Below are positions 7,540-29,844 of a stretch of 64,000 nt of DNA, in pieces. The DNA is from Saprospiraceae bacterium (GTDB lineage Bacteria; Bacteroidota; Bacteroidia; Chitinophagales; Saprospiraceae): assembly GCA_021604865.1 (NCBI GenBank), contig BQJU01000015.1, forward strand, positions 1 to 64,000, given 5' to 3'. Made by a program: the position numbers and the translations under genes. The stretch's first letter is position 1. Every line of letters starts with the position of its first letter. Under the pieces are notes generated by a model that made no database searches, was not told the origin of the DNA, and saw only the letters and a program-made list of their open reading frames with translations.

Positions 7540-7541
7540 TG

Positions 7542-7586
7542 GAGTGCATGTTTGGAAGTCAAACATTGAGCTACAAACATGTGCTC
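7542..7586. repeat. CATGTTTGG-family inverted repeat, short copy
   Basis: Arms GAGTGCATGTTTGGA and TACAAACATGTGCTC form an imperfect hairpin just after the stop of the glycosidase. The same core arm recurs at 27281-27323, 32397-32416, 35121-35469 and, decayed, at 57381-57550. It may act as a transcription end structure, but no U-tract follows. Confidence 0.6.
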
Positions 7587-7675
7587 AACAACTTCATAAA
7601 TAAAAGAAAGGTTACTATTTTTGCGCCAATTAATTTGGGTCACCTATTTAAAGCTACATTTGGGAAAGTTACCGC

Positions 7676-9364
7676 ATGAGTCAGAATATGCCATTGCTTG
7701 AGAATCGTTTTATACCTTTCCAGGAATCCATTGAATCTTATTCATTACCAGATCGATTTACCTTCCCTTTTTATTACGACCCACACCCACTTTGTCTTTT
7801 GGCTGCAAAGGAACTTGAGTACTATCTAGAAAATCAGACAGAATGGGAGCATAATTTTGGGATAGAACGAGATAAAAAAGGCCCCGTCATTGGTAAAATG
7901 TTTGGCGTTTTGGTGGTTCAGGATCAACAAAATGAGATTGGCTATTTAGCTGCCTTTTCGGGCAAACTTGCAGACAAAAATCACCACCCAAAGTTTGTAC
8001 CACCGGTGTTTGATATGCTGACTAAAGATGGGTTTTTTAAAAAGGAAGAAGAAATACTTAATGAGCTAAACCACCAAATAGAAACGCTCGAAAAAGCGCC
8101 GGAATTGCTGGCATGCCAACAATTTATCAATGCGGAAACTACACTCGCTTCATCCCGATTGCAGCAACAAAAACAACAAATGAAGGTGGCCAAACAGGCC
8201 AGAAAAGTTCGCCGCCAACAAGCAAAGGATACCCTGACGGCCGAACATTTCCAGGCTTTGCAGGAGGCATTAGTCAAAGAAAGTCAGCAGGATAAAATAT
8301 ACTACAAAAACCTGGCAACGTATTGGAAGAATCGGCTCTCTGATGCTCAACAGAATCTTGATCAATACCTCGACGAAATTGCTGTTTTAAAAAAAGAAAG
8401 AAAAAGCAAATCTGCGGCTTTACAACAAAAGCTGTTTGACCAATATCAATTTTTGAATCAGCAGGGAGTCATAAAAAGTTTGTGCGAAATTTTTCAGGAT
8501 AAAATTCCGCCTGCCGGTTCCGGTGAGTGTGCTGCACCAAAATTGCTCCAATATGCTTTTCAACACCAATTGAAGCCCATTGCTATGGCAGAATTTTGGT
8601 GGGGGCAATCGCCAAAATCGGAAATCAGAAAACACGGACATTTCTACCCTGCCTGCTGGGGAAAATGTGAACCCATTCTAACCCACATGCTTCAGGGTAT
8701 CGAAATGGATGAAAATCCCATGTTGTGCAATCCCGGCAAAGAAAAAGTGATAGAAATAATCTTCGAAGACGATCAACTTTTGGTGATTAATAAACCCGCT
8801 GAACTATTATCCGTTCCCGGGAAAAATGTTCAGGACTCCGTTTTTATTCGGATGCAACAAAAATTGCCTGAAGCTACCGGTCCACTCATAGTGCATCGCC
8901 TTGACATGGCTACTTCAGGATTGATGCTGATCGCCAAAACCAAAGAGGTCCATAAAAACCTGCAAAGGCAATTTATCAAACGGACCATCAAAAAACGGTA
9001 TGTAGCTTTACTTGATGGTATTGTAACCAAAGAGGAAGGCACCATAGATTTGCCACTGCGTGTTGATTTAAATGATAGACCACGCCAACTCGTTTGTTAT
9101 GATTTCGGGAAACCTGCCAAAACCAAATGGAAGGTGGTAGAGCAATCCAATCATCAGACGAAAATCCATTTTTTTCCGATTACCGGGCGAACCCATCAGT
9201 TGAGGATGCATGCAGCTCATGCGCTCGGATTAAACACGCCGATCCTGGGGGATGATCTTTATGGCACTAAAGCCGATCGACTTCACTTGCATGCGGAATC
9301 CATTGAGTTTGTACATCCAGTTAGCAAAGAAATAATGGCCATTCAAGTCGATCCGGGGTTTTAA
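7676..9364 (+). CDS. RluA-family RNA pseudouridine synthase with long N-terminal extension
   Basis: A 562-residue enzyme that isomerises uridine to pseudouridine in rRNA or tRNA. The RluA catalytic domain occupies about residues 355-560 and contains the signature HRLDMATSG with catalytic aspartate D410, plus ITGRTHQLRMH near 500-511. The N-terminal 350 residues are not the usual S4 domain. They include a Gln/Lys-rich coiled coil (about 120-265) and a folded segment with a WGQSPKSEIRKHGHFYPAC-like region near 300-325. This long form is known among gamma-proteobacterial and Bacteroidota RluA relatives. The exact RNA target is not deducible. It probably has its own promoter: TATTTTTG at 7616-7623 fits a -7 box but without a clear -33. 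Confidence 0.9.
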   Translation: MSQNMPLLENRFIPFQESIESYSLPDRFTFPFYYDPHPLCLLAAKELEYYLENQTEWEHNFGIERDKKGPVIGKMFGVLVVQDQQNEIGYLAAFSGKLADKNHHPKFVPPVFDMLTKDGFFKKEEEILNELNHQIETLEKAPELLACQQFINAETTLASSRLQQQKQQMKVAKQARKVRRQQAKDTLTAEHFQALQEALVKESQQDKIYYKNLATYWKNRLSDAQQNLDQYLDEIAVLKKERKSKSAALQQKLFDQYQFLNQQGVIKSLCEIFQDKIPPAGSGECAAPKLLQYAFQHQLKPIAMAEFWWGQSPKSEIRKHGHFYPACWGKCEPILTHMLQGIEMDENPMLCNPGKEKVIEIIFEDDQLLVINKPAELLSVPGKNVQDSVFIRMQQKLPEATGPLIVHRLDMATSGLMLIAKTKEVHKNLQRQFIKRTIKKRYVALLDGIVTKEEGTIDLPLRVDLNDRPRQLVCYDFGKPAKTKWKVVEQSNHQTKIHFFPITGRTHQLRMHAAHALGLNTPILGDDLYGTKADRLHLHAESIEFVHPVSKEIMAIQVDPGF

Positions 9365-9396
9365 AACCTCCAAACTTATTGCATTGATATCTGGCC

Positions 9397-9561
9397 TTAG
9401 GGGTCAGCGAAGAATAGCTTACCCATTTGATACGGCACTTTTGCCACCAGCCGTTGTTGCTCAAATCCTTGCTTAGTGGTGGCCAAGCGCGGTTTTCGCG
9501 CCTAGGCTAGTGACAAAATAGCTCGCCTGAAACAGACAACTTATTCTTCGCTGACCCCTTA
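9397..9561. mobile_element. MITE-like small inverted-repeat element, copy 2
   Basis: A 165-bp second copy of the element at 30-229. It starts TTAGGGGTCAGCGAAGAATAG and ends ATTCTTCGCTGACCCCTTA, the two ends being near-perfect inverted repeats. The interior matches copy 1 over its whole length apart from a deletion of about 36 bp. It lies between convergent genes. Its right end gives the TAA stop codon of the permease gene (9559-9561), the same geometry as copy 1 with the MocR gene. Its fold could also end transcription from both sides. Confidence 0.72.
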
Positions 9562-11772
9562 CATCTTCTGCACCAATTTCCGTCCCATGGGCAATACTCG
9601 CACAATGGCCACATTGCACAATGCTCGCGCAGTGAGCTGCGTGGCAAAATTACCCACTGTCATACGTTGCAGAAAGCCAACCTTTGTGGTTCCAACTACC
9701 AGTAAATCAAACTCTTTGGATTTTTCTACCAAAGTATCAATGGGGTCATCGGAAGCCAATACCTGAACATTGTACAATGCCCGCGCAGAATGTTTTTGTA
9801 TCGCTTCTATAAAGGTGCGACCAGAAGCGGCTTGTTGATCAAAAGTATAATCTTGTGGCAATATATTGAGGAAGGTGATCCGCCCACCGAATTCTTCCGC
9901 CAGTGCTCCTGCAAGCCGGACCATCAGTTCCAGATTGAGGCGGCCGCCTAATGACACAGCGATTTTCTTCAATTTCAATGGCTCTACGGGGTCTTTTAAT
10001 TTAAAAAATACAAGATTGGTCTGCACCTGATTGATGACATATTCCATTAAGTCATCGGCGGCGGCATTGGAATTTTGACCAGGATACCCCATCACCGTCA
10101 AATCACAACGTTCTTCCTCAGCGGCGTGTACGATGCCCAAGCCCAATTTATGCGATGCCCGAATGACCGGACGGATGTCGACATTTTTGTGAGGTTTCCA
10201 GGTTGCTACCCGATCCAACAATTCAAGTGATTGATCGGAATTGGAAAGGGCCATACGAAAATCCATTTGTTCAGGCGTATTGGCAATATGTAAGGTGATG
10301 ATCTCTCCTCCTTTACTTGCCAACAAGGCATTACAAATCTCGAAAATGCTTTTTTGAGTATCCGGATTGGCCATTGGCATGAGCACTCGTTCTCCTTTGT
10401 GCAATTTAAATCGGGGCCGCTCTTCTACCAAATTAATGTGCATGCCAGTTTCACTGCGTGCTACCCGTTTGCGGGAATAAAAAAAATAGATCAAGCCACC
10501 AATCAAAGCCAATTGTAATCCAAACAGAAGCGAAAGCCAATCCAATGTACACAGTAGCCCCAGGTTAGTGATCAGCGTTAGTTCCGGTAGTATTTTCTTC
10601 CAGAACGCATCGGGCTTTTTGGTCGGATCTGTACGGTAAATTTTGCGCAAAGCCAAGGAAACCGGCAAAAGGGAAACCAATAGGCAAAAGTTGGCAGCTT
10701 TTGCAATGAATTGCAATTGAAAACTCAACAGAAACACTAGTATCAAGATACCACCGGCAGCAATGGCGGCTCGTGGCGTTTTTGCTCCTTCGTGAATTTT
10801 CCCTAACAAGTCAGGCACAAAGCGGTCCTTTCCCATAGCATAAATCTGTCGCCCCTGTGAAAGCAAAGTACTATTCAAAGCCCCGGCAGCAGCCAGCACA
10901 CCACCCAATGAAATGAGCAGCCACCCATAACGCCCAAAACTTTTAGTGGCAACCTCCACCAGTGGCGCATTCGATCCAGCGAGTTCTTCCCAAGGCACCA
11001 CCAAAATACAAACCACAGCTACCAGCAAATAAAAAAGTAGGGCCACCCCCATCGAATATTTCATTGCCAAGGGAATAGTAACCGTCGGATTCTTAATTTC
11101 ATCCGCATTATTGGCAATGAGCTGATAGCCAAAAAAGGAAATGTAAATGATACCTATTGCACCAAATGTTCCCTCATAACCTTTGGGAAAAAGCGGTGTA
11201 GCCAGTTCCGGTTCAATGAAAAAGGCAGAAGCTACAATGAATAATACCAAGACGCCAAGATTGCCCCAGGTAAGAATATTCTGGATACGATCAGCGCCTT
11301 TGGTGCCCTTGGCATTCAGAAAGGTAGATAGCACCACCAGTAAACCGGCAATGATTTTCACCCCGAAAGGAGGAAGTCGATACCCCAAGATGGAAGTGAA
11401 GTATTCCGCAAAACCTATAGCATACAACCCACATGCAAAAATACTGCCCAGTGCCAGAAACCAGCCGGTAACAAACCCACCGATACGCCCCAACGACTGA
11501 TAGGCATAAGCATAACCACCGCCAGAAATAGGGACTAGCCGTGCCATTTCCGCAAATAACAAAGTGCTCAAAAATGCCAGTACCCCACAAATGATGTAGG
11601 AAATCCAGACAGAAGGCCCCGCTACGCCTGCCGCCAATCCAATGAGTACATATACGCCTGCCCCCATCAATGCACCAACACCAATAGTTGTCGCTCCAAA
11701 TAAGCCAATGGTTCGCTCAAAAGTGACGGGGATGAGTTTTTTTCGGAAGATTTCTTTGAGTTGATTGGGCAT
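9559..11772 (-). CDS. APC-superfamily amino acid permease fused to universal stress domains
   Basis: A 737-residue membrane protein. Residues about 1-440 are an APC-type transporter with roughly 12 membrane helices; the first helix carries the conserved GATTIGVGALMGAGVYVLIG glycine pattern and the C-terminal helices end near an FFYSRKR cytoplasmic junction. Residues about 455-735 hold two consecutive UspA-like cytoplasmic domains (second with VVGTTKVGFLQR near 700). Such fusions are usually annotated as cationic or general amino acid permeases, with the stress domains thought to bind nucleotides and regulate transport. The substrate is unknown. The stop codon lies in the terminal repeat of the adjacent MITE-like element. 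Confidence 0.9.
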   Translation of the reverse strand: MPNQLKEIFRKKLIPVTFERTIGLFGATTIGVGALMGAGVYVLIGLAAGVAGPSVWISYIICGVLAFLSTLLFAEMARLVPISGGGYAYAYQSLGRIGGFVTGWFLALGSIFACGLYAIGFAEYFTSILGYRLPPFGVKIIAGLLVVLSTFLNAKGTKGADRIQNILTWGNLGVLVLFIVASAFFIEPELATPLFPKGYEGTFGAIGIIYISFFGYQLIANNADEIKNPTVTIPLAMKYSMGVALLFYLLVAVVCILVVPWEELAGSNAPLVEVATKSFGRYGWLLISLGGVLAAAGALNSTLLSQGRQIYAMGKDRFVPDLLGKIHEGAKTPRAAIAAGGILILVFLLSFQLQFIAKAANFCLLVSLLPVSLALRKIYRTDPTKKPDAFWKKILPELTLITNLGLLCTLDWLSLLFGLQLALIGGLIYFFYSRKRVARSETGMHINLVEERPRFKLHKGERVLMPMANPDTQKSIFEICNALLASKGGEIITLHIANTPEQMDFRMALSNSDQSLELLDRVATWKPHKNVDIRPVIRASHKLGLGIVHAAEEERCDLTVMGYPGQNSNAAADDLMEYVINQVQTNLVFFKLKDPVEPLKLKKIAVSLGGRLNLELMVRLAGALAEEFGGRITFLNILPQDYTFDQQAASGRTFIEAIQKHSARALYNVQVLASDDPIDTLVEKSKEFDLLVVGTTKVGFLQRMTVGNFATQLTARALCNVAIVRVLPMGRKLVQKM

Positions 11773-14832: not shown

Positions 14833-16584
14833 ATGGACCTGATCTTTTTAAGTTTCGCCAACAGCCGGGAAGATCCATTACCCACACTTAAGGAAGAAGA
14901 AGACACGCTATATGGAATGCTGGCCCGTCGAATGGCGATGCAACATTTTACAATCCATCGGGATGGAGTAGCAACTACTTCAAGTATTGCCGAATACCTC
15001 CTTTTGTATAAAGACTTTATCAGCGTTTTTGTCTTCAGTGGTCATGCTGGAAGAGACAAGTTATTTGCCAGTGATGGTGATGCCAATGCTCTGGGAATCG
15101 CCAGTTTGCTGGGCCAATGCCCAAGGTTGAAGCTGGTGATACTCAATGGATGCTCCACACAGGGACAGGTTGCCAAATTGATTGCTTTACCTTCAAAACC
15201 TGTTGTAATTGCCACTAGCGCACCCGTAAAGGATCGGTCAGCAACCCAATTTTCTACCTCCTTTTTCCAAAGCCTAAGCGAACAAAGCAGCAATATTAAA
15301 GAGGCATTTGCTGCAGGCCTGGCTGCCGCACAAACTGTTTCCGACCAACCATTGAATGAAAAAAGAGGCAGTCTCGATCTTGAAGATGAAACCGATGATC
15401 AAAATATTTGGGGTATTTTTCCCGCAGAAGGGACCTCATTGGACTGGACTTTGCCTACCGGTACCTTCGACCGGAAATGGTTGGATTTTAAGCCCAACCA
15501 AATGTTGTACGACCAGTTGCTCAAAGCCTATGCTGCTTTTAACAAGGATGCTCAAAAAATACTTGACGATGAGGATATGGGTTTTGAAGGCAGCCTTCGG
15601 GATAAACGCAAAGCCATTCTTTCCTGTCTCCCCCACCCGATCAGCCTGCATCTAAGCAAATTATTTGCTCCGGCCAAGGCCAATACTAATATGACCTTTT
15701 ATGACAAATTGGGCATTGATAGATTGGCACAAATGGCCATTACCTACAATACAACCATCGAATTCATCACCTTTGTCATGTTAGCCCAATTGTGGGATGC
15801 TCTTTCAAAAAAGGAACCGATTCATATCAAGGAAACGTATAAGAAGACCTTGAAAGGTTTTTTCTTACTCGACAATGAGCAACGAAAACAATATGCCTTT
15901 TTCGAATTGATCCACGATATCCGGCAAATCTTTGAAGAAAATAATATTCCCTTCTTCATCCGGGAGATCCAAAAAATCAGTCAGGTCTTTAATGAGCAAT
16001 CACAATTTTATTTTGCCTGCCTCTTTATGGAAACGGTAAAAAAAAGGCTGGCAGCCAAAACCATTGGAGAGTCTGAAGCCATGCAATTGTGTATGTTGGC
16101 TGAAGACAAACTTGCCCTTATCCTTGAACAGATAGGTTTTACCTACAATTACACCTTGACATCGGTAAAAAGCATTGATGTCATCAAATACCGGCACCTT
16201 CCGAATCATTTATACAAACACAAATTTGTTAAATTGACCCAGGATATTATAGAGCCCAGTGAAGACGTAGACCGTATGCCTTATGTCACGGATATTAGTT
16301 CCGTCATTCTCGTTAATGAAAAGGAAGACGACATTGCCAAAAAATTTCTCAACCTCACTCCTTTTATCATTGATGAAAATGCCTTTGACCCCAAGGCTGT
16401 TGTGGCAAAACTCCAGTTTTTCGATCATTATAATGCGGATGAGGACACGTATTTTTTCAGGCATGTATATAATCCGGCAGACCCACTGCTGGCAATAGCT
16501 GACCAGCGGAATTACAAGATTGTAAAAGTTCAGTTTAATGAATTTGCAAAACTGCTTTTCCAACAACCAATGGCCTCTGTATGA
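14833..16584 (+). CDS. CHAT-domain caspase-like peptidase (cassette 1)
   Basis: A 583-residue, probably cytoplasmic protein with no signal peptide. Residues about 1-200 form a CHAT domain with the catalytic dyad visible as FSGHAG (H71) and LNGCSTQG (C107). The domain closes with a tryptophan-rich WGIFP...LDWTLP segment near 190-215. The middle (about 215-440) is helical and unknown. The last 110 residues include a motif LNLTPFIIDENAF that recurs in the paralog at 21071-22927, so the whole architecture is shared. CHAT proteases cut partner proteins when switched on by a sensor. Its stop codon overlaps the start of the nSTAND NTPase by 4 bp (ATGA), indicating coupled translation and a functional pair. 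The target is unknown. Confidence 0.86.
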   Translation: MDLIFLSFANSREDPLPTLKEEEDTLYGMLARRMAMQHFTIHRDGVATTSSIAEYLLLYKDFISVFVFSGHAGRDKLFASDGDANALGIASLLGQCPRLKLVILNGCSTQGQVAKLIALPSKPVVIATSAPVKDRSATQFSTSFFQSLSEQSSNIKEAFAAGLAAAQTVSDQPLNEKRGSLDLEDETDDQNIWGIFPAEGTSLDWTLPTGTFDRKWLDFKPNQMLYDQLLKAYAAFNKDAQKILDDEDMGFEGSLRDKRKAILSCLPHPISLHLSKLFAPAKANTNMTFYDKLGIDRLAQMAITYNTTIEFITFVMLAQLWDALSKKEPIHIKETYKKTLKGFFLLDNEQRKQYAFFELIHDIRQIFEENNIPFFIREIQKISQVFNEQSQFYFACLFMETVKKRLAAKTIGESEAMQLCMLAEDKLALILEQIGFTYNYTLTSVKSIDVIKYRHLPNHLYKHKFVKLTQDIIEPSEDVDRMPYVTDISSVILVNEKEDDIAKKFLNLTPFIIDENAFDPKAVVAKLQFFDHYNADEDTYFFRHVYNPADPLLAIADQRNYKIVKVQFNEFAKLLFQQPMASV

Positions 16585-18596
16585 AAGCAAAATTGACAAG
16601 TCCGTTTAAATTTCTTGATGCCTATGACCTGGCAGATCGAGATGTCTTTTTTGGAAGAGAAAAAGAGGTTGATGAGCTGTATAACCTGGTTTTCAAAACA
16701 CCTCTATTATTGTTGTATGGCCTATCTGGAACCGGCAAGACTAGCTTAGTTCAATGCGGGCTGGCCAATCGTTTTGATGGCCCCGATTGGTATCCGTTTT
16801 TCATCCGCCGGGAGAATGATATCAACCAATCACTTCGCACAGCTTTGGCGGCGCCATTGGATGAAAAACCACCGGAAAGTATCGTTGACAATGTCCGTTT
16901 TATTTACGAAGATTACCTCAGTACCGTCTACCTGATTTTTGACCAATTTGAAGAGTTGATTTTGTTGGGTAGGAAACAAGAAAAAGAACAGTTTTTACAG
17001 AGCATAAAAATGCTCATTTCCGCTCAAGCTCCCTGCCGGATTATCCTGGTTATGCGGGAGGAATTTATCGGCCGGCTGTACGATTTTGAACAAGCTATTC
17101 CTACTTTATTTGATTTTCGACTGCGGGTGGAACCCATGAATATTACCCGGGTAAAACAGGTGATTGAGTCATCCACCAAAAAATTCAATATTCAGCTCGA
17201 ATCCCCTAAAGAGGAACGGCTGGAGGAAATTATTGCCAACCTAAGTGGTAATAAGGCTGCGGTACAATTGCCCTATCTGCAAATTTATCTCGATACACTC
17301 TATAAGGATGATTTTGCAAGGACTTATGGCGCAAATAAAGAACGTGGAGATGACCTTCCGCCATTGACTTTTAGTAAGAATGAAATTGCCACTTTGGGTA
17401 CTATCGAAGAGGTCCTCGACACCTTTCTCAAGGAACAGGAAGAATCCTTGCAGGAGCAATTGGAAATCGACTTTCCTGGGCAAATTCCAACCAATAGTGT
17501 CCGAGATTTATTAGACCTTTTTGTCAGTGAGGAAGGGACCAAAGTCCCTATCAGTTATCGCCAGGAAGAACGGGCCGGTCAAAAAATAATGTATCTGGAA
17601 ACCGATGACCTATTACGTCCGGTTCCAGCGCTAAATCAGGAGATTCTAACTAAATGCCTGCTGGAATTACAATCCCGTCGGCTGCTGCGAATTTCTGACA
17701 ACACCCTTGAGCTGGCCCATGATAGCCTGGCAGCATTGATTGATGAGAATCGAAGCGACGACCAGCGACAAATCAACGAAGCACGCCGGAGGTTACAAAA
17801 TAGTTATTTTGAGTTTGAGAAAACAGGGGAATACCTGAGCCGTAAGCAACTTTTTTCGCTCGAATCCATTTTGCCGAGGCTGGTGTTAACGCCTGCAATT
17901 GAGCAATTTATTAAAGATAGCCATCGGGTATTGGAAGAAAAAGAACAAGCCGAACGGCAACGTTCTGAACGCGAACTAAGACTGACCCGTCAAAAGCTGG
18001 AAACTGAGCGAAAAGCCGCAAAAAAACAACGTTTTTTGTCTCTTTTGTTGGCCATCATCGCTTTATTGGCAGTACTCGCTGGTGGTTTTGCCCGTCAACA
18101 GTGGAAAAAAGCGGTTAGTACTAGTGAACAGCTGGCACAAGAAGCTTTTAACCGACAGGTCAATCAAGCTGTTGGTTTAAAAAACGAGGGCCAATATCAG
18201 GAAGCACTAGCTCAACTGGAGGCCGCTTACCAGCTCGCGCCCAATCTAGATCCGGAAGGCATAAGCCGCAACCGTATAACCTGGACAGAATTGGCCGAAT
18301 TGATGGCACGGGCAGAAAAAAGCTCAAAAGAGGAATCGCAATTGCTGGAATCCCTTAACCTTTACAAAGAAGCTTACGAACTTAGCCCCGATCAACTCAT
18401 CGAAACTCGCATTACCCAAACCCAAAAAGAATTGGATAACCGCTTTGAATTTTACAAAAGCAAAGCTCAAGGTATACTTGAATACGATGGCTGTAAATAT
18501 GCCAGGGCAGTTTTGGAAAAAGCCCTACTGCTCAAGCCTGATGATAGCTATGTAAAAACTGCCCTGGAAAAATGTATGAAAAGATCCCAAAATTAA
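16581..18596 (+). CDS. nSTAND-type P-loop NTPase with membrane helix and TPR tail (cassette 1)
   Basis: A 671-residue protein. It opens with an SPFKFLDAY motif and a Walker A loop GLSGTGKTS (residues 47-55). Walker B is VYLIFDQFEE with D121. The helical/winged-helix part ends at ELAHDSLAALIDEN (377-390), the motif that closes this region in nSTAND-WD40 proteins. A charged coiled coil (about 445-483) leads into one membrane helix (485-504) and then TPR-like helices (about 515-665). STAND NTPases are signal switches that oligomerise on sensing a ligand. By topology the NTPase is cytoplasmic and the TPR tail lies across the membrane. Its start overlaps the CHAT gene by 4 bp. Confidence 0.85.
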   Translation: MKAKLTSPFKFLDAYDLADRDVFFGREKEVDELYNLVFKTPLLLLYGLSGTGKTSLVQCGLANRFDGPDWYPFFIRRENDINQSLRTALAAPLDEKPPESIVDNVRFIYEDYLSTVYLIFDQFEELILLGRKQEKEQFLQSIKMLISAQAPCRIILVMREEFIGRLYDFEQAIPTLFDFRLRVEPMNITRVKQVIESSTKKFNIQLESPKEERLEEIIANLSGNKAAVQLPYLQIYLDTLYKDDFARTYGANKERGDDLPPLTFSKNEIATLGTIEEVLDTFLKEQEESLQEQLEIDFPGQIPTNSVRDLLDLFVSEEGTKVPISYRQEERAGQKIMYLETDDLLRPVPALNQEILTKCLLELQSRRLLRISDNTLELAHDSLAALIDENRSDDQRQINEARRRLQNSYFEFEKTGEYLSRKQLFSLESILPRLVLTPAIEQFIKDSHRVLEEKEQAERQRSERELRLTRQKLETERKAAKKQRFLSLLLAIIALLAVLAGGFARQQWKKAVSTSEQLAQEAFNRQVNQAVGLKNEGQYQEALAQLEAAYQLAPNLDPEGISRNRITWTELAELMARAEKSSKEESQLLESLNLYKEAYELSPDQLIETRITQTQKELDNRFEFYKSKAQGILEYDGCKYARAVLEKALLLKPDDSYVKTALEKCMKRSQN

Positions 18597-21070: not shown

Positions 21071-22927
21071 ATGGCCAAATCCACCTTATATTTCACCTTC
21101 GCCAATCAGGAAGACCGGCACCTCGACCTGCTCAAAACGGAGATGGATCAACTCAAGGATATCCTCCGGCCGCTGGAGCAGCGCGAATTCATCAAAATTG
21201 AAAGAGAAGAAAGCACGACCACTGAAGATCTGGTCAAAACCTTTTCCGCTTTTCCCGACCAGATTATGATTTTCCATTATGCAGGCCATGCAGGAAGTCG
21301 TCAACTGGAACTAGAGGGAGGCAGCGCCAATGCCAAAGGTCTGGCGGGCCTTCTGGGAGAACAAAAGAACCTTCAATTGGTCTTTCTTAATGGTTGTAGC
21401 ACAAAAGGTCAGGTTGCTGCGCTTCTTCAATTGGGTGTCAAAGCCGTTATTGCCACTTCTGTGCCGATCGCTGACCAGAAAGCAGTTGATTTTTCTTCGG
21501 CTTTTTATCGGGCATTGGCCAATAAACGGAGTATTAAAAGAGCCTTTGAATTTGCCCGTGAAAGTTTACTGGTCAAATACAAGGAAGTTCCCGAAATTAG
21601 TATCAAGCGCGGCCTGGACTTGGATGATGAGTCAGATGAAGAAGAACTCATGCCCTGGGTATTGTATTTCCAGGATGAAGCAGCCATCAGCTGGCGGTTA
21701 CCTTACTACCGCGAAGTAGGTCTACCAAATGATATGATCAATTATATCGGCAAAAGCTTCAAAGTCAACCGTTATATCGTAATGGTTTTAGATGAAATGT
21801 GCCGTTACAATAAAGACATTTACCACCAGATGATCGAGGTAGTAGATGGAGAAGAGGTCAAACGTGATTCCAGTAATTATCCGGATCTGGTGATCAAGAA
21901 TTTCCCCTGGATCATTGGTTGTCAGATTCAATTGCTGCGGCAAAAAAACCAGGCCAATAACGAGCGGCTCGACCAGTTACTAAGCACCTATATCATCACT
22001 AGCATGGTGCTTTATTACATCCTTTTGTCCGACTTCTGGGATGAAAAACGGAGACTAAAATTTTCATTACCCAAAGGATTTAGTGCGCATAAAGCGTTGT
22101 CAGAAGACGAATTATTAACTACTGACTTCCTGGTCCGGGTCAGGGATATTGCGCAGCAAATGCAAGCGCAAAAAGCATCCTTTTTTGTACCCGAGATAGA
22201 GTCTATTTCCCAGAACCTGGCTAGCGAGACCCATTTGGCGAAAGCCCATTCCTATTTGGAACAGTTGCGAAAACAGAGGAGCTCCATAACCCAGGATGCC
22301 CTGGAAAAGACCTGCCTGACTGCCGAACAGGCTGTGGCAGTGGTCTTAAAATCCGTTGCCTTTCTGGCCGACTACAGAATGCTTACTGTGCGAAATATTA
22401 GTATTGACAATCCACGGTACGGCCAACAAACCTATGAGCTCAACCTCGGCGCCTTGCATGCTATTGTCAATACCAGCCTTAGTATGTATGAGGATGATGC
22501 CCAACGTCGAAAGGAGACCTATTCCAATTGCAAATCTATAGTGCTGACACCTAGCGAAAAAGACCTGAGCCAAACGCTGAATTTATCTCCATTTTTTATT
22601 GATAAAAATACCTTTTTGAATAAGGAACATATCGATTTGTATTTCTTTGGATTTAAGAATCAGGACCAATACCATTATCTGGCGGTAAAACACAATATTT
22701 TCATCGCGCTGCAAAATGAAAAAGGTACAGATATTATTGACACCACTATGTCGCAGGAGGATTTTGAAGAAGGTAGAAACATTAACCGGCACAAGGAAAG
22801 CGAAGATGACTTTGGTTTTGGTGAAGCCTTTGGTTTTAAAGAGGAGGAGGTAACCACCCAGGAACGAGCCAAAGTATTTGCCTTAATTGAGGATCAATTT
22901 GAACAATTCCAAACTGATTTTAGCTAA
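21071..22927 (+). CDS. CHAT-domain caspase-like peptidase (cassette 2)
   Basis: A 618-residue paralog of the protein at 14833-16584, with the same order of regions. The catalytic dyad is H73 (YAGHAG) and C109 (LNGCSTKG). The CHAT domain closes with PWVLYF...ISWRLPY near 200-220. A helical middle and a C-terminal domain with LNLSPFFIDKNTF near 513-525 follow, and the tail is acidic. It is not obviously more similar to its paralog than expected for an old duplication. A 145-bp gap separates it from cassette 1, and its NTPase starts 5 bp after its stop. It is probably the effector of the second module. Confidence 0.86.
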   Translation: MAKSTLYFTFANQEDRHLDLLKTEMDQLKDILRPLEQREFIKIEREESTTTEDLVKTFSAFPDQIMIFHYAGHAGSRQLELEGGSANAKGLAGLLGEQKNLQLVFLNGCSTKGQVAALLQLGVKAVIATSVPIADQKAVDFSSAFYRALANKRSIKRAFEFARESLLVKYKEVPEISIKRGLDLDDESDEEELMPWVLYFQDEAAISWRLPYYREVGLPNDMINYIGKSFKVNRYIVMVLDEMCRYNKDIYHQMIEVVDGEEVKRDSSNYPDLVIKNFPWIIGCQIQLLRQKNQANNERLDQLLSTYIITSMVLYYILLSDFWDEKRRLKFSLPKGFSAHKALSEDELLTTDFLVRVRDIAQQMQAQKASFFVPEIESISQNLASETHLAKAHSYLEQLRKQRSSITQDALEKTCLTAEQAVAVVLKSVAFLADYRMLTVRNISIDNPRYGQQTYELNLGALHAIVNTSLSMYEDDAQRRKETYSNCKSIVLTPSEKDLSQTLNLSPFFIDKNTFLNKEHIDLYFFGFKNQDQYHYLAVKHNIFIALQNEKGTDIIDTTMSQEDFEEGRNINRHKESEDDFGFGEAFGFKEEEVTTQERAKVFALIEDQFEQFQTDFS

Positions 22928-22932
22928 AAACT

Positions 22933-24000
22933 ATGGATAGCCCATTTAAATTTTTGGATGCATATCAAAAGGATGACCGGGAGCGGTTTTTCGGGCGGGA
23001 ACGGGAAACCGCACAGCTGTACAATGCGGTTTTTGCCTCCAATCTGACCTTATTATACGGTGCTTCGGGTACCGGAAAGACCAGCCTGATCAATTGTGGC
23101 CTGGGTAATAAATTTTACGATACCGATTGGTTGCCATTATTTATTCGACGGAATGACAATGTCAATGATTCCCTTGAGCAGGCTGTCAACCAGCGAATGA
23201 TCAGTGACAACAATCCCGATTTTTCAAAAAAATCAATTGCCGACAAATTACAATTGTTATACCTCGATTATTACAAGCCCATTTATCTGATCTTTGATCA
23301 ATTTGAAGAGTTGTACATCTTGGGTAAACCTGCGGAACAACACCTATTCCATCAAAACATTGCCCGCCTCTTGCGCTCTGATTTGCAAGCCAAAGTCCTG
23401 CTTGTCATTAGGGAAGAATGGATCGCCTATCTCAATGAATTCGAAAAAATAGTCCCCAGCCTTTTTGACAACCGCCTGCGCATAGAACGCATGAATGACC
23501 CCAACGTATATCGGGTGATTAGCGGCTCTTGTCGGTATGCCAATATAGAAGTACAAGAACCAGGCAAAACGATCATGCAGATTATTGAAAACCTCCGGGA
23601 TAAACACGAGCGAGTAGACCTAACCAATCTACAGGTATATCTCGATCGGCTTTACCGCGGCTACCAGGAAAACAGTCCCAATGACAAGCCTGAAAAAATA
23701 ATCTTCAACCCCGATCTTGTCAATCAGGTAGGCAAAATTGATAACGTCCTGTCTCAGTTTCTAGATGAACAAATTTTCCGAATTGAAGCTGAGTTACAAT
23801 CCAGAGGCGTGAAAAATGCGAAGGGATTACCACTTGAAATCCTCTTTTCTCTCGTTACAGAAGATGGTACCAAACAGGCCCTACCAGCAACCAATATCCT
23901 CGATAACCTGCCAAAGAACCGTAACATCGATCAGGCGGACCTGGAATATTGTTTGCAGGAATTTCAACGGATCAAATTGCTCAGACAGGTAGAAGGATAG
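22933..24000 (+). CDS. nSTAND-type P-loop NTPase, free-standing (cassette 2)
   Basis: A 355-residue protein that matches only the first half of the cassette 1 NTPase. SPFKFLDAY is at the N-terminus, Walker A GASGTGKTS at 43-51, and Walker B IYLIFDQFEE with D122. It ends at IKLLRQVEG, just where its paralog continues with the ELAHDSLA motif. The stop (TAG, 23998-24000) is followed by a second in-frame stop (TAA, 24004-24006). The frame is then open into the next gene, which starts with the missing motif. It therefore looks like a gene fission rather than a simple truncation. It has no membrane helix of its own and would need to bind its neighbour. Confidence 0.82.
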   Translation: MDSPFKFLDAYQKDDRERFFGRERETAQLYNAVFASNLTLLYGASGTGKTSLINCGLGNKFYDTDWLPLFIRRNDNVNDSLEQAVNQRMISDNNPDFSKKSIADKLQLLYLDYYKPIYLIFDQFEELYILGKPAEQHLFHQNIARLLRSDLQAKVLLVIREEWIAYLNEFEKIVPSLFDNRLRIERMNDPNVYRVISGSCRYANIEVQEPGKTIMQIIENLRDKHERVDLTNLQVYLDRLYRGYQENSPNDKPEKIIFNPDLVNQVGKIDNVLSQFLDEQIFRIEAELQSRGVKNAKGLPLEILFSLVTEDGTKQALPATNILDNLPKNRNIDQADLEYCLQEFQRIKLLRQVEG

Positions 24001-24054
24001 GATTAACCTGGATTTGTCATTAACTTCCTCATTAGGAAAAACACGATCAAACCT

Positions 24055-25716
24055 ATGATAAAATACGAACTTTCCCACGATACTATCGCCCGGCAGATCT
24101 ATGAAAAGACATCTGCTGATGCAAAGGCTCGTCGGAAAGTTCAATTGATGATCACAAGGGCTTACCAACGATTCGGGGAGCGAGGTGTGCTTTTGACTCA
24201 GGAGGACCTCGATGAACTCAAACCTCACGAAAAAAATATACCTCTCCAGCCTGAAGAACTTGATTTTATCCAGCAAAGTAAAAGGGTGTTACAACAAAAA
24301 GCCATCCGCCGACGTCAGCTGGCTATCGGCATTATCCTGGCCCTGACTACAATGCTACTATTTGCCCTATGGCAATGGCGTAAAGCACGGGCAAGCGCCA
24401 TCGCTCAAAAACGAGTAACACTAGCCATCCAGGCCAGAGAAGCCCTGGACAATGGGGACGCTAGTCTCGCATATCGGTTGGCTGAGGCTGCCTATCACGG
24501 TGACATTCAGCCGGAAACCCAAAATGCCATTCAGGAAGTCTTAGAAGACCTGGACGAAGCCGGTTTGACGGTCGACTTCCTACATGATGGGCCCGTCCAG
24601 GCGCTAGCTATTGCTGAAGATGAACAACGTTTTCTCACCGGTTCAGAAGATGGTAAGGCTCGATTGTGGGATGCTCTTAGGAAATTATTGTTTGAATATA
24701 GCCATTCCGGAGCCATCAGTCAGGTTGCTTTTTCACCCTGGGACCAGCACCCGGTCACGGCATCTCTGGATTCCAGCCTCTGTTTTTGGGATGGCAAGAA
24801 TCGGTGTGTTTTTAGTATTCAGCATGGTGGTCCAATAACCGGTTTTCAAATGGTGGAAAATCGAAACCTTATCCTGATCACTAGCCCGAAACTGGTCAGC
24901 TTGTACGACCGTTCAGGTATCTTATTGAAGCGGTTTATGCCGGGTACAACCATTCTGTCGGCTGCATTGTCGCCCAATGGTAGTGACCTGTTATTGGCTA
25001 CAGTCGATAAAGTTGAGGTTTGGAATACCTTTTTCCTTTCCGATCAATTTAAAGGTCAGGATATAGAGGGGCAGTTTTGCACTCTGGAGGATAACATACA
25101 GGCTGCCCGTTTTATTCAGTCGGATGCCCGAAATGTTCGGCTGCTGGTCATCAGTAAATCCGGCATTCACATCTACGACCGCAATTGTGAAGAAAACACA
25201 CCAGAATATACCGCACTTACGGAACACCTGGGCCGTTATGAGCAACCGAATTACCTGACTTTTTCCTATCCTGGCTTTCAAGACCCTAAAACATTATGGG
25301 TTACCGAGCAAACAAAGGTGCGCATGTGGTCAGCCTATCGGGATGATGGAGCAGGAAAACCCAAAACTGATTTGAATTTATTTAGTGATACGGATCAAAC
25401 ATTCTATTGCGCCAGCTTTTCCCCTTCCGACCGTTATCTGTTGATCAGTAGTGCTACCAATTGGGTAAATATATGGAATCTGGGATTTGGACAAGATATT
25501 ACCCGTGCTTTTCGTTTTAAGTCCAAGGTTACCAATGCTGTTTTTTCCAGCAAGGACCACTGGTTATTAACCACTTCAGGAGGCAATACTGCCCAACTAT
25601 GGGATTTATCACAAAAAGCGACTTACAACGCCAACCGGTGGCTCCAAAATTTTGACCTTTATTCGAAACGATTGCGCCCTTTGACGGATAAAGAAAAAGA
25701 ACACTACCTGAATTAA
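24055..25716 (+). CDS. Membrane-anchored beta-propeller, C-terminal half of an nSTAND-WD40 protein (cassette 2)
   Basis: A 553-residue protein that starts exactly at the motif MIKYELSHDTIARQI, which in fused relatives joins the NTPase to its C-terminal part. Helices follow, then one membrane segment (about residues 88-106), then the helix pair with LAYRLAEAA (about 123-160). A WD40-like propeller (about 165-530) has blades such as GSEDGKARLWDA and FSPSDRYLLISSATN...IWNL. It ends RLRPLTDKEKEHYLN. It is in the same reading frame as the NTPase upstream, 54 bp away. The propeller probably faces the periplasm while the N-terminus docks on the NTPase; this is inferred from topology. Confidence 0.8.
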   Translation: MIKYELSHDTIARQIYEKTSADAKARRKVQLMITRAYQRFGERGVLLTQEDLDELKPHEKNIPLQPEELDFIQQSKRVLQQKAIRRRQLAIGIILALTTMLLFALWQWRKARASAIAQKRVTLAIQAREALDNGDASLAYRLAEAAYHGDIQPETQNAIQEVLEDLDEAGLTVDFLHDGPVQALAIAEDEQRFLTGSEDGKARLWDALRKLLFEYSHSGAISQVAFSPWDQHPVTASLDSSLCFWDGKNRCVFSIQHGGPITGFQMVENRNLILITSPKLVSLYDRSGILLKRFMPGTTILSAALSPNGSDLLLATVDKVEVWNTFFLSDQFKGQDIEGQFCTLEDNIQAARFIQSDARNVRLLVISKSGIHIYDRNCEENTPEYTALTEHLGRYEQPNYLTFSYPGFQDPKTLWVTEQTKVRMWSAYRDDGAGKPKTDLNLFSDTDQTFYCASFSPSDRYLLISSATNWVNIWNLGFGQDITRAFRFKSKVTNAVFSSKDHWLLTTSGGNTAQLWDLSQKATYNANRWLQNFDLYSKRLRPLTDKEKEHYLN

Positions 25717-25731
25717 TAAAATACCACCACC

Positions 25732-27249
25732 ATGATAAAATCCATTATGTCCTTTCTGCTGATTAGCCTGTCTTTTTTCAGCCTTCAGGCAGCAGGTGAA
25801 TTGCAACTATTAATGTCTTCTCGAATCAATGTAGAAGATGAAAATGATTATCAGAACCAGAGTTGTGATTCCTACCGGTTTGATGGAAAGATCCTATTTG
25901 ACAACCCAAATCAGTTAGCGCTTTTCCAGAATCAGGCCTATCGTTTAGGATTCGATTTTACGGCCTTTTTGGAAAACAAACAATTTGATCCCACCAATTA
26001 TTCGGCGGTTGGCCTAAGGATGGATGTTTACCCACGCGAGAAAAAAACGTATAAAGTCAGGGCACTCAGTAACGCAAACAATAAAGTAATTATTGATTTA
26101 AATATTTTCGGCAAAGTTGGAGAGGTAGATACCATAAGGGTGCAATTATGGGGGAAAGGCGATGTTCCTTTGGTAGAAGCCATCTTTCCATTTCAGGTGT
26201 ATGATGCCTCAGGCGATTTTAGTGGCATGGCTGTTTTACCCTATATGATCCAGATAGAACCAGCTTACATGATCCTTACTGACGTCAATAATACCAACAA
26301 TTTTATCCAACAGGAAGCCAGCTTGGGAAATGATCCCTTGATAGTCAAAAGAGGGAAAACCTATAATTTTGAATTCGAAATAGAAAAACACGTCAATGTA
26401 GAAGGAGAAGAGTATGTCGTTATTGCCGACAAGGACAACAATTACGGTTATACTATACGCTATTCCTGGGATCAGCCGCTGCAATTTAGAAAGAGCTCAA
26501 ATGGTTTTTCCGGTAGGATAACAATGAATCCAGACAAAAACACCCGGCCCAAAAAACCGCTTTGGGTAAATGGTGATATGACCAGTTTGTTACCTGAAAA
26601 AGGAAAAAGAACGGTACAATACCTCAAGTTTTATCAAAATGACCCGAAACAGAACAAAAAATATACAGATCAGGCTACCAGAAATAACCGCATCATCAGT
26701 CAACGCAAAAGTATGGCTTCCCTTGCCAACAAAAGTTTCATCGCCAACTTCCAACAGTCGGACTTGAAATCCATTGAAAAAATCTCTCCGAAATCCGCCA
26801 ACCTGAAAACGGAGCTATTAAAAGGTGCTGAATTTGTAGTGGTCGCTCCCAAAAAGAACATCCTGCAAATGGAGAAAGTCAATACGCGGTATTATTTTGA
26901 AAAAAACGGTAAAATGAAACCACAGCTTATGGTACCAATGCAGAAATATCAATTCATTACCCAACCGGAAGTAGCTCCTCAAACTCAACCTTCAAATCCC
27001 CCTAAACGAAAACATTCCAATTTAAAGATTCAGAAAACCGAACAGGTACAAAAGAACAATACAAAAATCAATTCCAAAGCCTCCGTTCGGAGTCAGAGTA
27101 GGCCTACGATGGAAAATGCCACAATCTCTAGCGGAAGGTCAGACACAGGAAAATCAAATGGTCTGCACACCCTTTATATTGAAGCCTGCCGGGAAACCGA
27201 CTATCTGGATTGTCGACCATTCCAGATTACCATCAAATTGGTAGATTGA
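25732..27249 (+). CDS. Secreted protein of unknown function inside the CHAT/nSTAND cluster
   Basis: A 505-residue protein that I do not recognise, 15 bp after the cassette 2 propeller gene. A signal peptide covers about residues 1-21 (ISLSFFSLQAAG). Residues about 25-300 are rich in beta strands with regular aromatic and hydrophobic spacing, suggesting two sandwich domains. Residues about 300-470 are basic and rich in Lys, Asn, Gln and Ser with low complexity. The last 30 residues return to ordered sequence with two cysteines (EACRETDYLDC). It could be a periplasmic partner or ligand of the propellers, but only its position supports that. Confidence 0.7.
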   Translation: MIKSIMSFLLISLSFFSLQAAGELQLLMSSRINVEDENDYQNQSCDSYRFDGKILFDNPNQLALFQNQAYRLGFDFTAFLENKQFDPTNYSAVGLRMDVYPREKKTYKVRALSNANNKVIIDLNIFGKVGEVDTIRVQLWGKGDVPLVEAIFPFQVYDASGDFSGMAVLPYMIQIEPAYMILTDVNNTNNFIQQEASLGNDPLIVKRGKTYNFEFEIEKHVNVEGEEYVVIADKDNNYGYTIRYSWDQPLQFRKSSNGFSGRITMNPDKNTRPKKPLWVNGDMTSLLPEKGKRTVQYLKFYQNDPKQNKKYTDQATRNNRIISQRKSMASLANKSFIANFQQSDLKSIEKISPKSANLKTELLKGAEFVVVAPKKNILQMEKVNTRYYFEKNGKMKPQLMVPMQKYQFITQPEVAPQTQPSNPPKRKHSNLKIQKTEQVQKNNTKINSKASVRSQSRPTMENATISSGRSDTGKSNGLHTLYIEACRETDYLDCRPFQITIKLVD

Positions 27250-27323: not shown

Positions 27324-27369
27324 TATGGTTTAAGAAAAACCTATCTTGCCATTCGACATCCAACCAACT

Positions 27370-29844
27370 ATGAAGTACGAATTATCTCATGATACGATCG
27401 CCAGGCAAATTTTCGAAAAATCTTCGGCAGAGACAAAGGCAAGACGAAAGATAAAGGTGTTGGTGGAGCGGGCTTATGCAAGACACCAAAACAATGCACG
27501 CATTATATTGTCAAAAGAGGACCTGGAAGAGATCAAACCTTTCGAAACCATTATCCTATTCAATAAGGAAGAACTTCATTTTATTCAAAAATCCAAGCGC
27601 GCCATTTACAGACGTCGCAACCTGTTAATAGGCCTCACCGCCCTGGTTCTGGTCATGTTGGCAGCAACATCTATCTGGGCACTTAATGAAAAGAGTAAAT
27701 CCGAAAAAGCGCGGCAAAAAGTGTTTGCAGAAAAAACCCGTGCCACGTCTATTTTATTGGCTAGCAAAGCCAGAGAGGCACAAAATGCCATGGACGGCAC
27801 TCAGGCCCTTAAATATGCCGCATACAGTACCCGATTGGATATCAATGATGAATCCAGGGATATCCTTTACGAACAGTTTTATAAACCCCACCGCTATTAT
27901 TACAATCAAAAGGTTCCTCATCTTTATCAGGAAAAAAGTCTTAAAAAAGCAATCATCACAAGTGAAGCTCCATATCAATACTTTTTATTATATGGGGATG
28001 GGCATTTAATGACTTCCAATGACAGCTTGGTAAATTTCACCCCTCTGTACGCTAATTATCAAGACATTAGGAACATTGCTACCGTTCCTGGCCAGAAAAC
28101 ATTGATAATCAGTCATAAAGATAGTATTAGCTTGATCGATTACACCTCTATGATGCCTGTTGAGGCACTGAAAGCTAATGCAAAGGTAGACAACTTTACC
28201 CTTTCCTTTGATGGACAAACCTTACTCTCCACCAGTGATAAAAGTGACCGCATAGCCTCGAAGCAAGTATTGGTATGGGAGCCTTTCAAAACAGATCAGC
28301 CAGTGGATACCTTGGTGCATTCCGCTCAGGTGATGAATGTAACGATCTCCGCTGACGGTCAACTTTTTGCAACAGAAACTAGTAGGTATTTTTATATCTG
28401 GTCCCGCGAGGGCGTGCAACTGGGAAGAATTTACAAAAGCATTAACCTGGAAACTGATATCTTCTTCTATCCCAAAAAGAACCAAAAGGGCTGTTATTAC
28501 CTGATCAAATCGCCCTCCTCCTTTAAGGCCAATTCCCTGCAGGTATACGAATGGTGTGGTGACAATTTTGTAGACCGAACTCGTGAATTCAACTGGACAT
28601 TACCCACTGATGACCTCGGCACAATGGCACTAAAAGACAACGGAGCCATAGCCATAAGTGGTTCTCATTCACCTATTTATTACTATGAGCCCTATTTTAA
28701 TTCCGAGGGTCATTTACAAATTGGTCAACCTGTCATACAATTGGATCGTCGGCAAAACACCTTCAACGAACGCATGCTTTTTCACCCCAATCGGCATCAG
28801 CTGCTTAGTTTCAGCAACAATATTACGACCTGGGAGTTATCACCGGAATTCCGTCCTTTTATGAGCTTCCTCCCAGAATCTCAGCAAACTAAAATTCAGC
28901 ATGGGCTTTGTAATCTTTATCCCTTCTGGTGGTCTTTTACCATCCAAAATGAAAATCCCTCGGGTGCTTTGCTCAAAATATTTCAAGGTGCCAGAGCAAA
29001 TCCTGTAATTGAGCTCCCCTTTACACAAAATATAGCTCCTCTGATGAGTGTATGCCGAACCGGGACTATCGCTTTTTTTGCCGAGCAAAACGATGAAGTG
29101 TTAGTCTACGATTCCAGCCAACAATTGATCTATAGAAAAAGTTTTGAAGCACTAGAGCCTGATTTTATTGACCTGGATTTTGAAGGCAATCAACTATTGA
29201 TAGGTTCACAAAAAAATAACCACCTCTCTATTCTCAACCAGCAAGGCGAAATCATTTTTGAGCGGATTTTCCCTTTCAACCTTTTTAAGGCTGTATTTTC
29301 TCCTGTTAATCCAAAATTGTGTTATCTGACAGGATCAAACCAACAATCTTCCTACTTATACCTACTCAATACCACATCTGGAGTGATGGATTCTGTATCT
29401 ACAGAAAGTTACCTGGATCGAAATTTGGCACTTTCAAGTGATGGAAAACGCATTCTACTGGTAGGTTCCAACCGAATTGAAGTATTGGATAGCCTGTTGA
29501 CCAAACGTTTTTCTCTACGCAGTGAAGACGCGACCTTTAGCATGGCACGGCTTTCTCAAAATGAGCACCTTTTGACCGTTATAGATGGACAAAACGCCCA
29601 AATTATCGATATGAGACATTTGGAAGAGCCCCTGGTCTCTTTGACACAGGTACAAGATGCTGTTCTTTCAGTTGAAGACAATCAGTTATTTACACTGACT
29701 GTTCTGCCTAATCAGATTGAAAATGAATCACAATACCGTTTTCGAATTTGGCCTTTTGGTGCCAAAAATGTGTACGAACGAATTGAGCAAATGCATATAG
29801 CTGACCTTCCGGAGAACATCAAATCATTATACGGACTAAAGTAG
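27370..29844 (+). CDS. Orphan membrane-anchored beta-propeller of the nSTAND type
   Basis: 824 residues from the ATG at 27370; the frame can also start from TTG at 27346. The ATG gives MKYELSHDTIARQI, matching the start of the cassette 2 propeller almost residue for residue, so it is preferred. Helices with an LSKEDLEEIKP motif follow, then a membrane helix (about 84-104), then the pre-propeller helix pair with ALKYAAYS (about 128-165). A long, degenerate beta-propeller fills the rest (about 190-800). No NTPase or CHAT gene accompanies it, so it may share the cassette 2 NTPase. The propeller repeats are far less regular than in the other two. Confidence 0.75.
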   Translation: MKYELSHDTIARQIFEKSSAETKARRKIKVLVERAYARHQNNARIILSKEDLEEIKPFETIILFNKEELHFIQKSKRAIYRRRNLLIGLTALVLVMLAATSIWALNEKSKSEKARQKVFAEKTRATSILLASKAREAQNAMDGTQALKYAAYSTRLDINDESRDILYEQFYKPHRYYYNQKVPHLYQEKSLKKAIITSEAPYQYFLLYGDGHLMTSNDSLVNFTPLYANYQDIRNIATVPGQKTLIISHKDSISLIDYTSMMPVEALKANAKVDNFTLSFDGQTLLSTSDKSDRIASKQVLVWEPFKTDQPVDTLVHSAQVMNVTISADGQLFATETSRYFYIWSREGVQLGRIYKSINLETDIFFYPKKNQKGCYYLIKSPSSFKANSLQVYEWCGDNFVDRTREFNWTLPTDDLGTMALKDNGAIAISGSHSPIYYYEPYFNSEGHLQIGQPVIQLDRRQNTFNERMLFHPNRHQLLSFSNNITTWELSPEFRPFMSFLPESQQTKIQHGLCNLYPFWWSFTIQNENPSGALLKIFQGARANPVIELPFTQNIAPLMSVCRTGTIAFFAEQNDEVLVYDSSQQLIYRKSFEALEPDFIDLDFEGNQLLIGSQKNNHLSILNQQGEIIFERIFPFNLFKAVFSPVNPKLCYLTGSNQQSSYLYLLNTTSGVMDSVSTESYLDRNLALSSDGKRILLVGSNRIEVLDSLLTKRFSLRSEDATFSMARLSQNEHLLTVIDGQNAQIIDMRHLEEPLVSLTQVQDAVLSVEDNQLFTLTVLPNQIENESQYRFRIWPFGAKNVYERIEQMHIADLPENIKSLYGLK

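Follow-up and report, generated by a model that had tools for sequence, protein, structure and literature searches.

The nSTAND1 NTPases (PF20703), named by Kaur et al. 2021 (PMC8195603), often occur with CHAT, WD40, TPR and FGE-sulfatase domains, and nSTAND1 and CHAT conflict systems are already known (PMC8195603, PMC7159879, PMC10907252). The locus described here lies in the window, by which is meant the whole stretch of 64,000 nucleotides of a Saprospiraceae genome that was analysed, and it shares with these NTPases the core with its Walker motifs, the end in a winged helix, a membrane helix and C-terminal domains that vary. It departs from the fused nSTAND1 relatives examined, which are single chains, in that the NTPase is cut ahead of an E-x-x-H-D motif, and separate partner proteins, present in several copies, bear the remainder.

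In NLRs and Apaf-1, the MHD motif is located in the ATPase chain and, because of this, its movement is hard to separate from that of the rest of the switch. The motif of the NLRs holds ADP and the closed state, and mutations within it are autoactivating (PMC8813719, PMC10586772). In common with these NB-ARC proteins, the locus presents an NBD-HD-WHD succession in the read-through model described below, a putative MHD-type motif that closes the WHD, candidate sensors of the propeller or LRR type and a caspase-like protease nearby. However, the MHD element and the sensor would here be borne by other, membrane-crossing polypeptides, the protease is a separate gene and there are several candidate sensors per NTPase. 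A further likeness is to the plant helper/sensor NLR networks (e.g. NRC), as one hub is predicted for several sensors, but in those networks both hub and sensors are complete NLRs, whilst here each sensor would contribute no more than the final part of the switch domain. The locus is likely to encode an immune-type switch in which a CHAT-protease/STAND hub receives its MHD element in trans from interchangeable transmembrane receptors. No account of a STAND NTPase divided at its MHD element and served by exchangeable partners was found in the part of the literature that was searched. PADLOC-DB 2023 gave only weak partial matches (the best of them, to a HEAT-ARM model, scoring 24 bits across the WD40 part) and a search of NCBIfam returned nothing useful.

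A split CHAT-nSTAND1 cassette

The genes concerned, together with those of cassette 1, the fused comparator in the same window, are as follows:

14833..16584 (+), CHAT1, the protease-domain protein that cassette 1 offers for comparison, with a weak PF12770 match (19.1 bits, below the cut-off)
16581..18596 (+), NTP1, the fused NTPase of cassette 1, used for comparison: in-chain ELAHDSLA, then a transmembrane helix and TPR
21071..22927 (+), CHAT2, CHAT (caspase-like) protease-domain protein of 618 aa, predicted effector (PF12770, 41 bits, cut-off 24)
22933..24000 (+), NTP2, nSTAND1 NTPase of 355 aa that ends after LLRQVE (PF20703, 109.8 bits, cut-off 27.1)
24055..25716 (+), ESHD2, partner chain of 553 aa, in which a putative MHD module at the N-terminus is followed by a single predicted transmembrane helix and a WD40 beta-propeller
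24316..24372 (+), membrane-spanning helix predicted for ESHD2 (aa 88-106), its N side rich in K/R and its place common to most of 55 standalone chains
25732..27249 (+), SEC505, 505 aa, encoded between ESHD2 and ESHD3, apparently with a signal peptide and matching no Pfam family
27367..29844 (+), ESHD3, a further partner chain, of 825 aa and starting MKYELSHDTIARQI, with a putative MHD module, a single predicted transmembrane helix and a C-terminal part that resembles a propeller

CHAT2, in whose translation the motifs HYAGHAG and NGCST can be read, is homologous to CHAT1 via relatives and lies directly upstream of NTP2; its orthologues occupy this same upstream position next to the split NTPase in most of the relative loci. 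The Walker A (G-x-SGTGKTS) and Walker B (DQFEE) motifs are invariant across 10 split NTPases. The best-scoring stretch of PF20703 covers profile positions 1-268 of 379 in NTP2 and 1-375 in the fused NTP1, and the E-x-x-H-D motif is absent from the NTP2 chain and present in the partner chain instead. The WD40-type repeats of ESHD2 also belong to a chain separate from the NTPase, so that the sensor repeats are not in the NTPase chain. ESHD3 has no NTPase gene of its own, and its module is 49% identical to that of ESHD2. Relatives of SEC505, in one or two copies, adjoin WD40-type partners in two other loci (L034 and L245) and, weakly, in a third (L033).

At the junction between NTP2 and ESHD2, the following elements are distinguished:

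23980..23997 (+), LLRQVE, the last strand of NTP2 (350-355 in the AF2 read-through model), modelled as strand 1 of the winged-helix hairpin
23998..24006 (+), NTP2 stop codons: TAG (23998-24000), one codon, then TAA (24004-24006)
24001..24054 (+), 54-bp intergenic stretch, taking the place of the hairpin turn of fused relatives
24064..24081 (+), YELSHD of ESHD2, predicted to form strand 2 of the hairpin and to hold the MHD-type motif, with the His codon at 24076-24078 and the Asp codon at 24079-24081

An initial annotation of this DNA had reported both stop codons and an in-phase start at 24055, and all three are borne out by the sequence: the ATG lies 1122 nt (24055-22933), or 374 codons, into the NTP2 frame, and opens a reading frame (24055-25716) that encodes MIKYELSHDTIARQI, a protein starting MIKYELSHDT. 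Its statement that cassette 1 has ELAHDSLA within a single chain is likewise correct, the motif occupying residues 377-384 of 16581-18596 with the codon for His380 at 17718-17720. The 54 bp over which it described the frame as open hold as the distance from TAG to ATG but not as the stretch that follows the second stop, which is 48 bp. No in-frame ATG, GTG or TTG occurs between the TAA and 24055.

Conservation of the cut and co-occurrence of the chains

When the first 150 residues of ESHD2 were searched against 149 related genomes, standalone proteins with the identical start residue were recovered, adjoining CHAT and short NTPase genes. In the corresponding NTPase search, the nine best matches (at least 47% identity) were short frames of 355-390 residues, the fused ones reaching at most 46%. 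Both fused and split forms thus exist among the orthologues: in a set of 120 non-redundant NTPases, E-x-x-H-D follows the strand ..RIxLLR.. at no more than 25 residues' distance in each of the 85 long chains, and each of the 35 short ones stops after that strand and lacks the motif. The partner proteins begin M-K-x-E-L-x-H-D; E5, H8, D9 and A12 are invariant in an alignment of 20 standalone chains, as are the same residues in fused relatives (E377, H380, D381 and A384). Named isolates with the split form are Saprospira grandis DSM 2844 (L168) and Aureispira sp. CCB-QB1 (L096). The split is ancient and conserved, and lies inside the winged-helix hairpin, just before E-x-x-H-D; the feature beyond chance is the exact cut position, identical in 35 of 35 short NTPases.

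The two halves also occur together. Across 398 genomes of the family, in which individual loci were checked, 30 carry both, none the split NTPase only, two the partner only and 366 neither (Fisher p about 4e-43). The 30 genomes with a split NTPase span 17 genera and every one of them also carries standalone partners; the two partner-only genomes are fragmented (about 88-89% complete, 660-770 contigs). In pairs with measurable dS, dN is well below dS for both halves. The functional two-protein form considered by the initial annotation is well supported by this co-occurrence and selection and by the presence of the split in 17 genera and a second family, and the split is almost certainly conserved and functional. 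The other option that had been considered, namely that in this genome a fused gene was recently inactivated or misread in sequencing, could draw on the two in-phase stops between halves that are fused in cassette 1. It was rejected, as orthologues throughout those genera and the second family carry the same split, both halves are under purifying selection and ESHD3, with the same start, is a second partner gene in the window; its probability is negligible.

The in-phase arrangement of the halves had also been taken as a sign of fission, but this carries no weight. The 22 non-redundant junctions between NTPase and partner divide into 10 in-phase and 12 out-of-phase cases, with gaps of -1 to 275 nt, and in five loci (L235, L238, L094, L095 and L035) the partner gene stands ahead of CHAT or the NTPase. 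Since most junctions are out of phase and partners lie upstream or far off, the shared frame is a coincidence and read-through is not the system's way of working. The production of some fused protein by programmed stop-codon read-through or reinitiation would be favoured by the phase of the present junction and of the 10, and by S. grandis DSM 2844, where the junction closest to a simple read-through (L168:8989-10827) has a single TAA and an in-phase gap of 12 nt; that locus has another partner gene further on. Against it stand the 12 out-of-phase junctions, the two stops that would have to be passed in this genome and those partners that precede CHAT or lie at a distance of tens of kb. Ruled out by gene order and unlinked partners, read-through is very improbable.

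The history of the split was approached with a tree of the NTPase core from which the trait columns had been left out. A quick-search tree shows two changes between fused and split forms; the tree in which the split chains are held together has a likelihood higher by 8.2 and is not rejected (p-AU 0.689), and one origin of the split is compatible with these results. A reversed direction, in which the two-chain form is ancestral and the fused forms arose by gene fusion, perhaps repeatedly, would be in keeping with the diversity of the fused forms and with a tree that is unrooted and merely drawn at its midpoint. It is nevertheless quite unlikely, as fused forms are far wider in the searched set, where they extend to KSB1, Aminicenantes, Alphaproteobacteria and many Bacteroidota, and split forms can be held as one clade. 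NTPase distances correlate with those of adjacent partners (Mantel r 0.887), a value confounded by shared descent, which alone could give it. Two genomes (G222 and G211) have two NTPase types each, every type next to a matching partner type.

A second type of split, also producing a two-chain switch, occurs in CHAT-nSTAND1 loci of the same bacteria. It is cut between the NBD and the helical domain, whereas the NTP2 type is cut inside the winged helix. The NBD (about residues 1-250) ends one protein and the HD, winged helix, motif, membrane helix and a WD40-like part follow in the next. This arrangement was seen in L085 (ORF6/ORF5), L044, L089, L090, L087, L045, L042/L086 and L163, and in genomes G087 and G022. 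In L085 (contig C6 of G000, 138500-158352; ORFs 6046-8418 and 8514-10388), the first protein also carries a complete NTPase, giving two switches in tandem.

Structural models and the putative MHD motif

NTP2 and the ESHD2 module were modelled with AF2 as one read-through chain, the TAG and TAA being replaced by Gly and only the split-homologue alignment being supplied. The model has a mean pLDDT of 83.2 and a pTM of 0.72, its docking being helped by the linker, as the translated intergenic stretch joins both chains. Strands at 350-355 (LLRQVE) and 375-380 (MIKYEL) are followed by SHD and a helix that begins at D383 (383-392). The model of the fused NTP1 (pLDDT 89.9) has the same order, with strands at 369-372 and 375-378 and a helix from 381.

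Structural comparison of the read-through model with VIA-align gave Apaf-1 (Z 16.8, rmsd 7.0, 339 residues aligned), NRC2 (Z 16.3) and the NRC1 NB-ARC (Z 15.7, rmsd 5.4, 312 aligned, model residues 15-396 on 153-494), with MalT, NLRC4, NLRP3 and NOD2 also among the best. Provided that the end of the NRC1 alignment is ungapped, His382-Asp383 of the model fall on His480-Asp481 of the NRC1 MHD motif, of which His480 contacts the beta-phosphate of ADP (PMC6713354). The fused control model best matched ORC/Cdc6 and other AAA+ chains, with no Apaf-1-type matches in its top 50. Because of this control, the domain orientation is uncertain, the closed STAND arrangement being inconsistently predicted, and the structural equivalence to MHD rests on the read-through model and the sequence. 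When solved structures were searched with an HMM built on the fused alignment, the sole match was weak and fell in the P-loop region of 2fna. From the read-through model and the conserved residues we infer, with good support, that ELSHD is an MHD-type motif; by analogy with NRC1, it would contact the nucleotide.

Candidate receptors and a proposed switch

A simple hydropathy scan of 55 non-redundant partners placed one predicted membrane helix after the module in most of them, at residues of about 81-118 (one at 139), with a K/R-rich N side; six fell below the helix threshold, and come from the family adjoining the NTPase in Saprospira and Aureispira. Under the positive-inside rule, this charge bias suggests that the module is cytoplasmic and the C-terminal domain outside. 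The C-terminal parts comprise WD40, LRR (L084 and L237) and FGE-sulfatase domains (L244:9334-11235 and L246:6128-7633) and a weak CarboxypepD_reg match, others being coiled-coil-like or having no family match. The FGE-sulfatase fold is diversified by diversity-generating retroelements in other STAND systems. In one partner (L095:5519-7108), encoded directly before CHAT and the split NTPase, the C-terminal part reads, as judged by eye, like a caspase-family peptidase (YLLAVGIDAYKG...).

Most NTPases and partners are neighbours, so it is the unlinked cases that are informative. The hub layout was examined in two genomes, G185 (two contigs) and G036, with all candidates scored. G185, which near-identical neighbours suggest to be Aureispira-like, has one split NTPase and five partners, four of them about 95 kb away, and a similar layout is found in G306 and G340. 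G036 has one split NTPase on a contig (C181) with no adjoining partner and three partners on other contigs. In a genome of another family of the class (G777), there are four split NTPases; of the six standalone partners there, two lie away from any NTPase. Elsewhere, up to three partners occur in tandem (L036 and L037). A single split NTPase gene can have several partner genes, some at a great distance, and one hub probably serves several receptors. In two remote four-partner clusters of Aureispira-like genomes (L229:5463-12904 and L232:7106-14216), the partner genes are interspersed with those of large proteins that do not match proteins of the window. The initial annotation was right about a two-protein form, but had missed the resemblance of ELSHDT to the MHD-type motif of the STAND winged helix, the multi-copy, partly unlinked transmembrane family and ESHD3.

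It can be proposed that the N-terminus of a partner adds the missing strand and the MHD-type motif to NTP2 in trans, which would at the same time tether the switch to the membrane. The C-terminal domain of the partner (WD40, LRR, FGE-sulfatase or others), predicted to lie outside the cytoplasm, would sense a signal, whereupon the MHD element would be moved or bound and so control ADP/ATP exchange and assembly of the NTPase. Assembly would in turn activate the CHAT protease encoded just upstream, giving one hub with several exchangeable receptors. The split, its conservation, the co-occurrence of the halves, the multi-copy partners and their variable ends are observed; binding, nucleotide control, topology and CHAT activation are inferred. 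Completion of the winged helix in trans is quite likely, and gene order tips the balance slightly towards CHAT as the output. The fuller scheme, in which an MHD-less STAND NTPase is completed by any of several receptors, the MHD strand serving as a plug whose engagement sets the nucleotide state and triggers CHAT, is given an even chance.

The two chains may instead be conserved and yet not complete each other, the NTPase working without an MHD element and the partner segment docking elsewhere or on another surface of NTP2. Such an arrangement would fit the greater size of the partner family, compared with that of the NTPases, and its partial lack of linkage to them. Nonetheless, a single predicted hairpin is severed precisely between its two strands in every genome, the motif residues are as invariant in the partner as in fused chains and co-occurrence across genomes is nearly perfect, so that this alternative appears unlikely.

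If completion in trans is correct, an MHD element on a separate, exchangeable protein could be added, removed and swapped in vitro, and how STAND switches read their nucleotide would become directly testable. It would also mean that bacteria can diversify their receptors without duplicating the switch and effector, and that a transmembrane route leads into a bacterial caspase-like protease.
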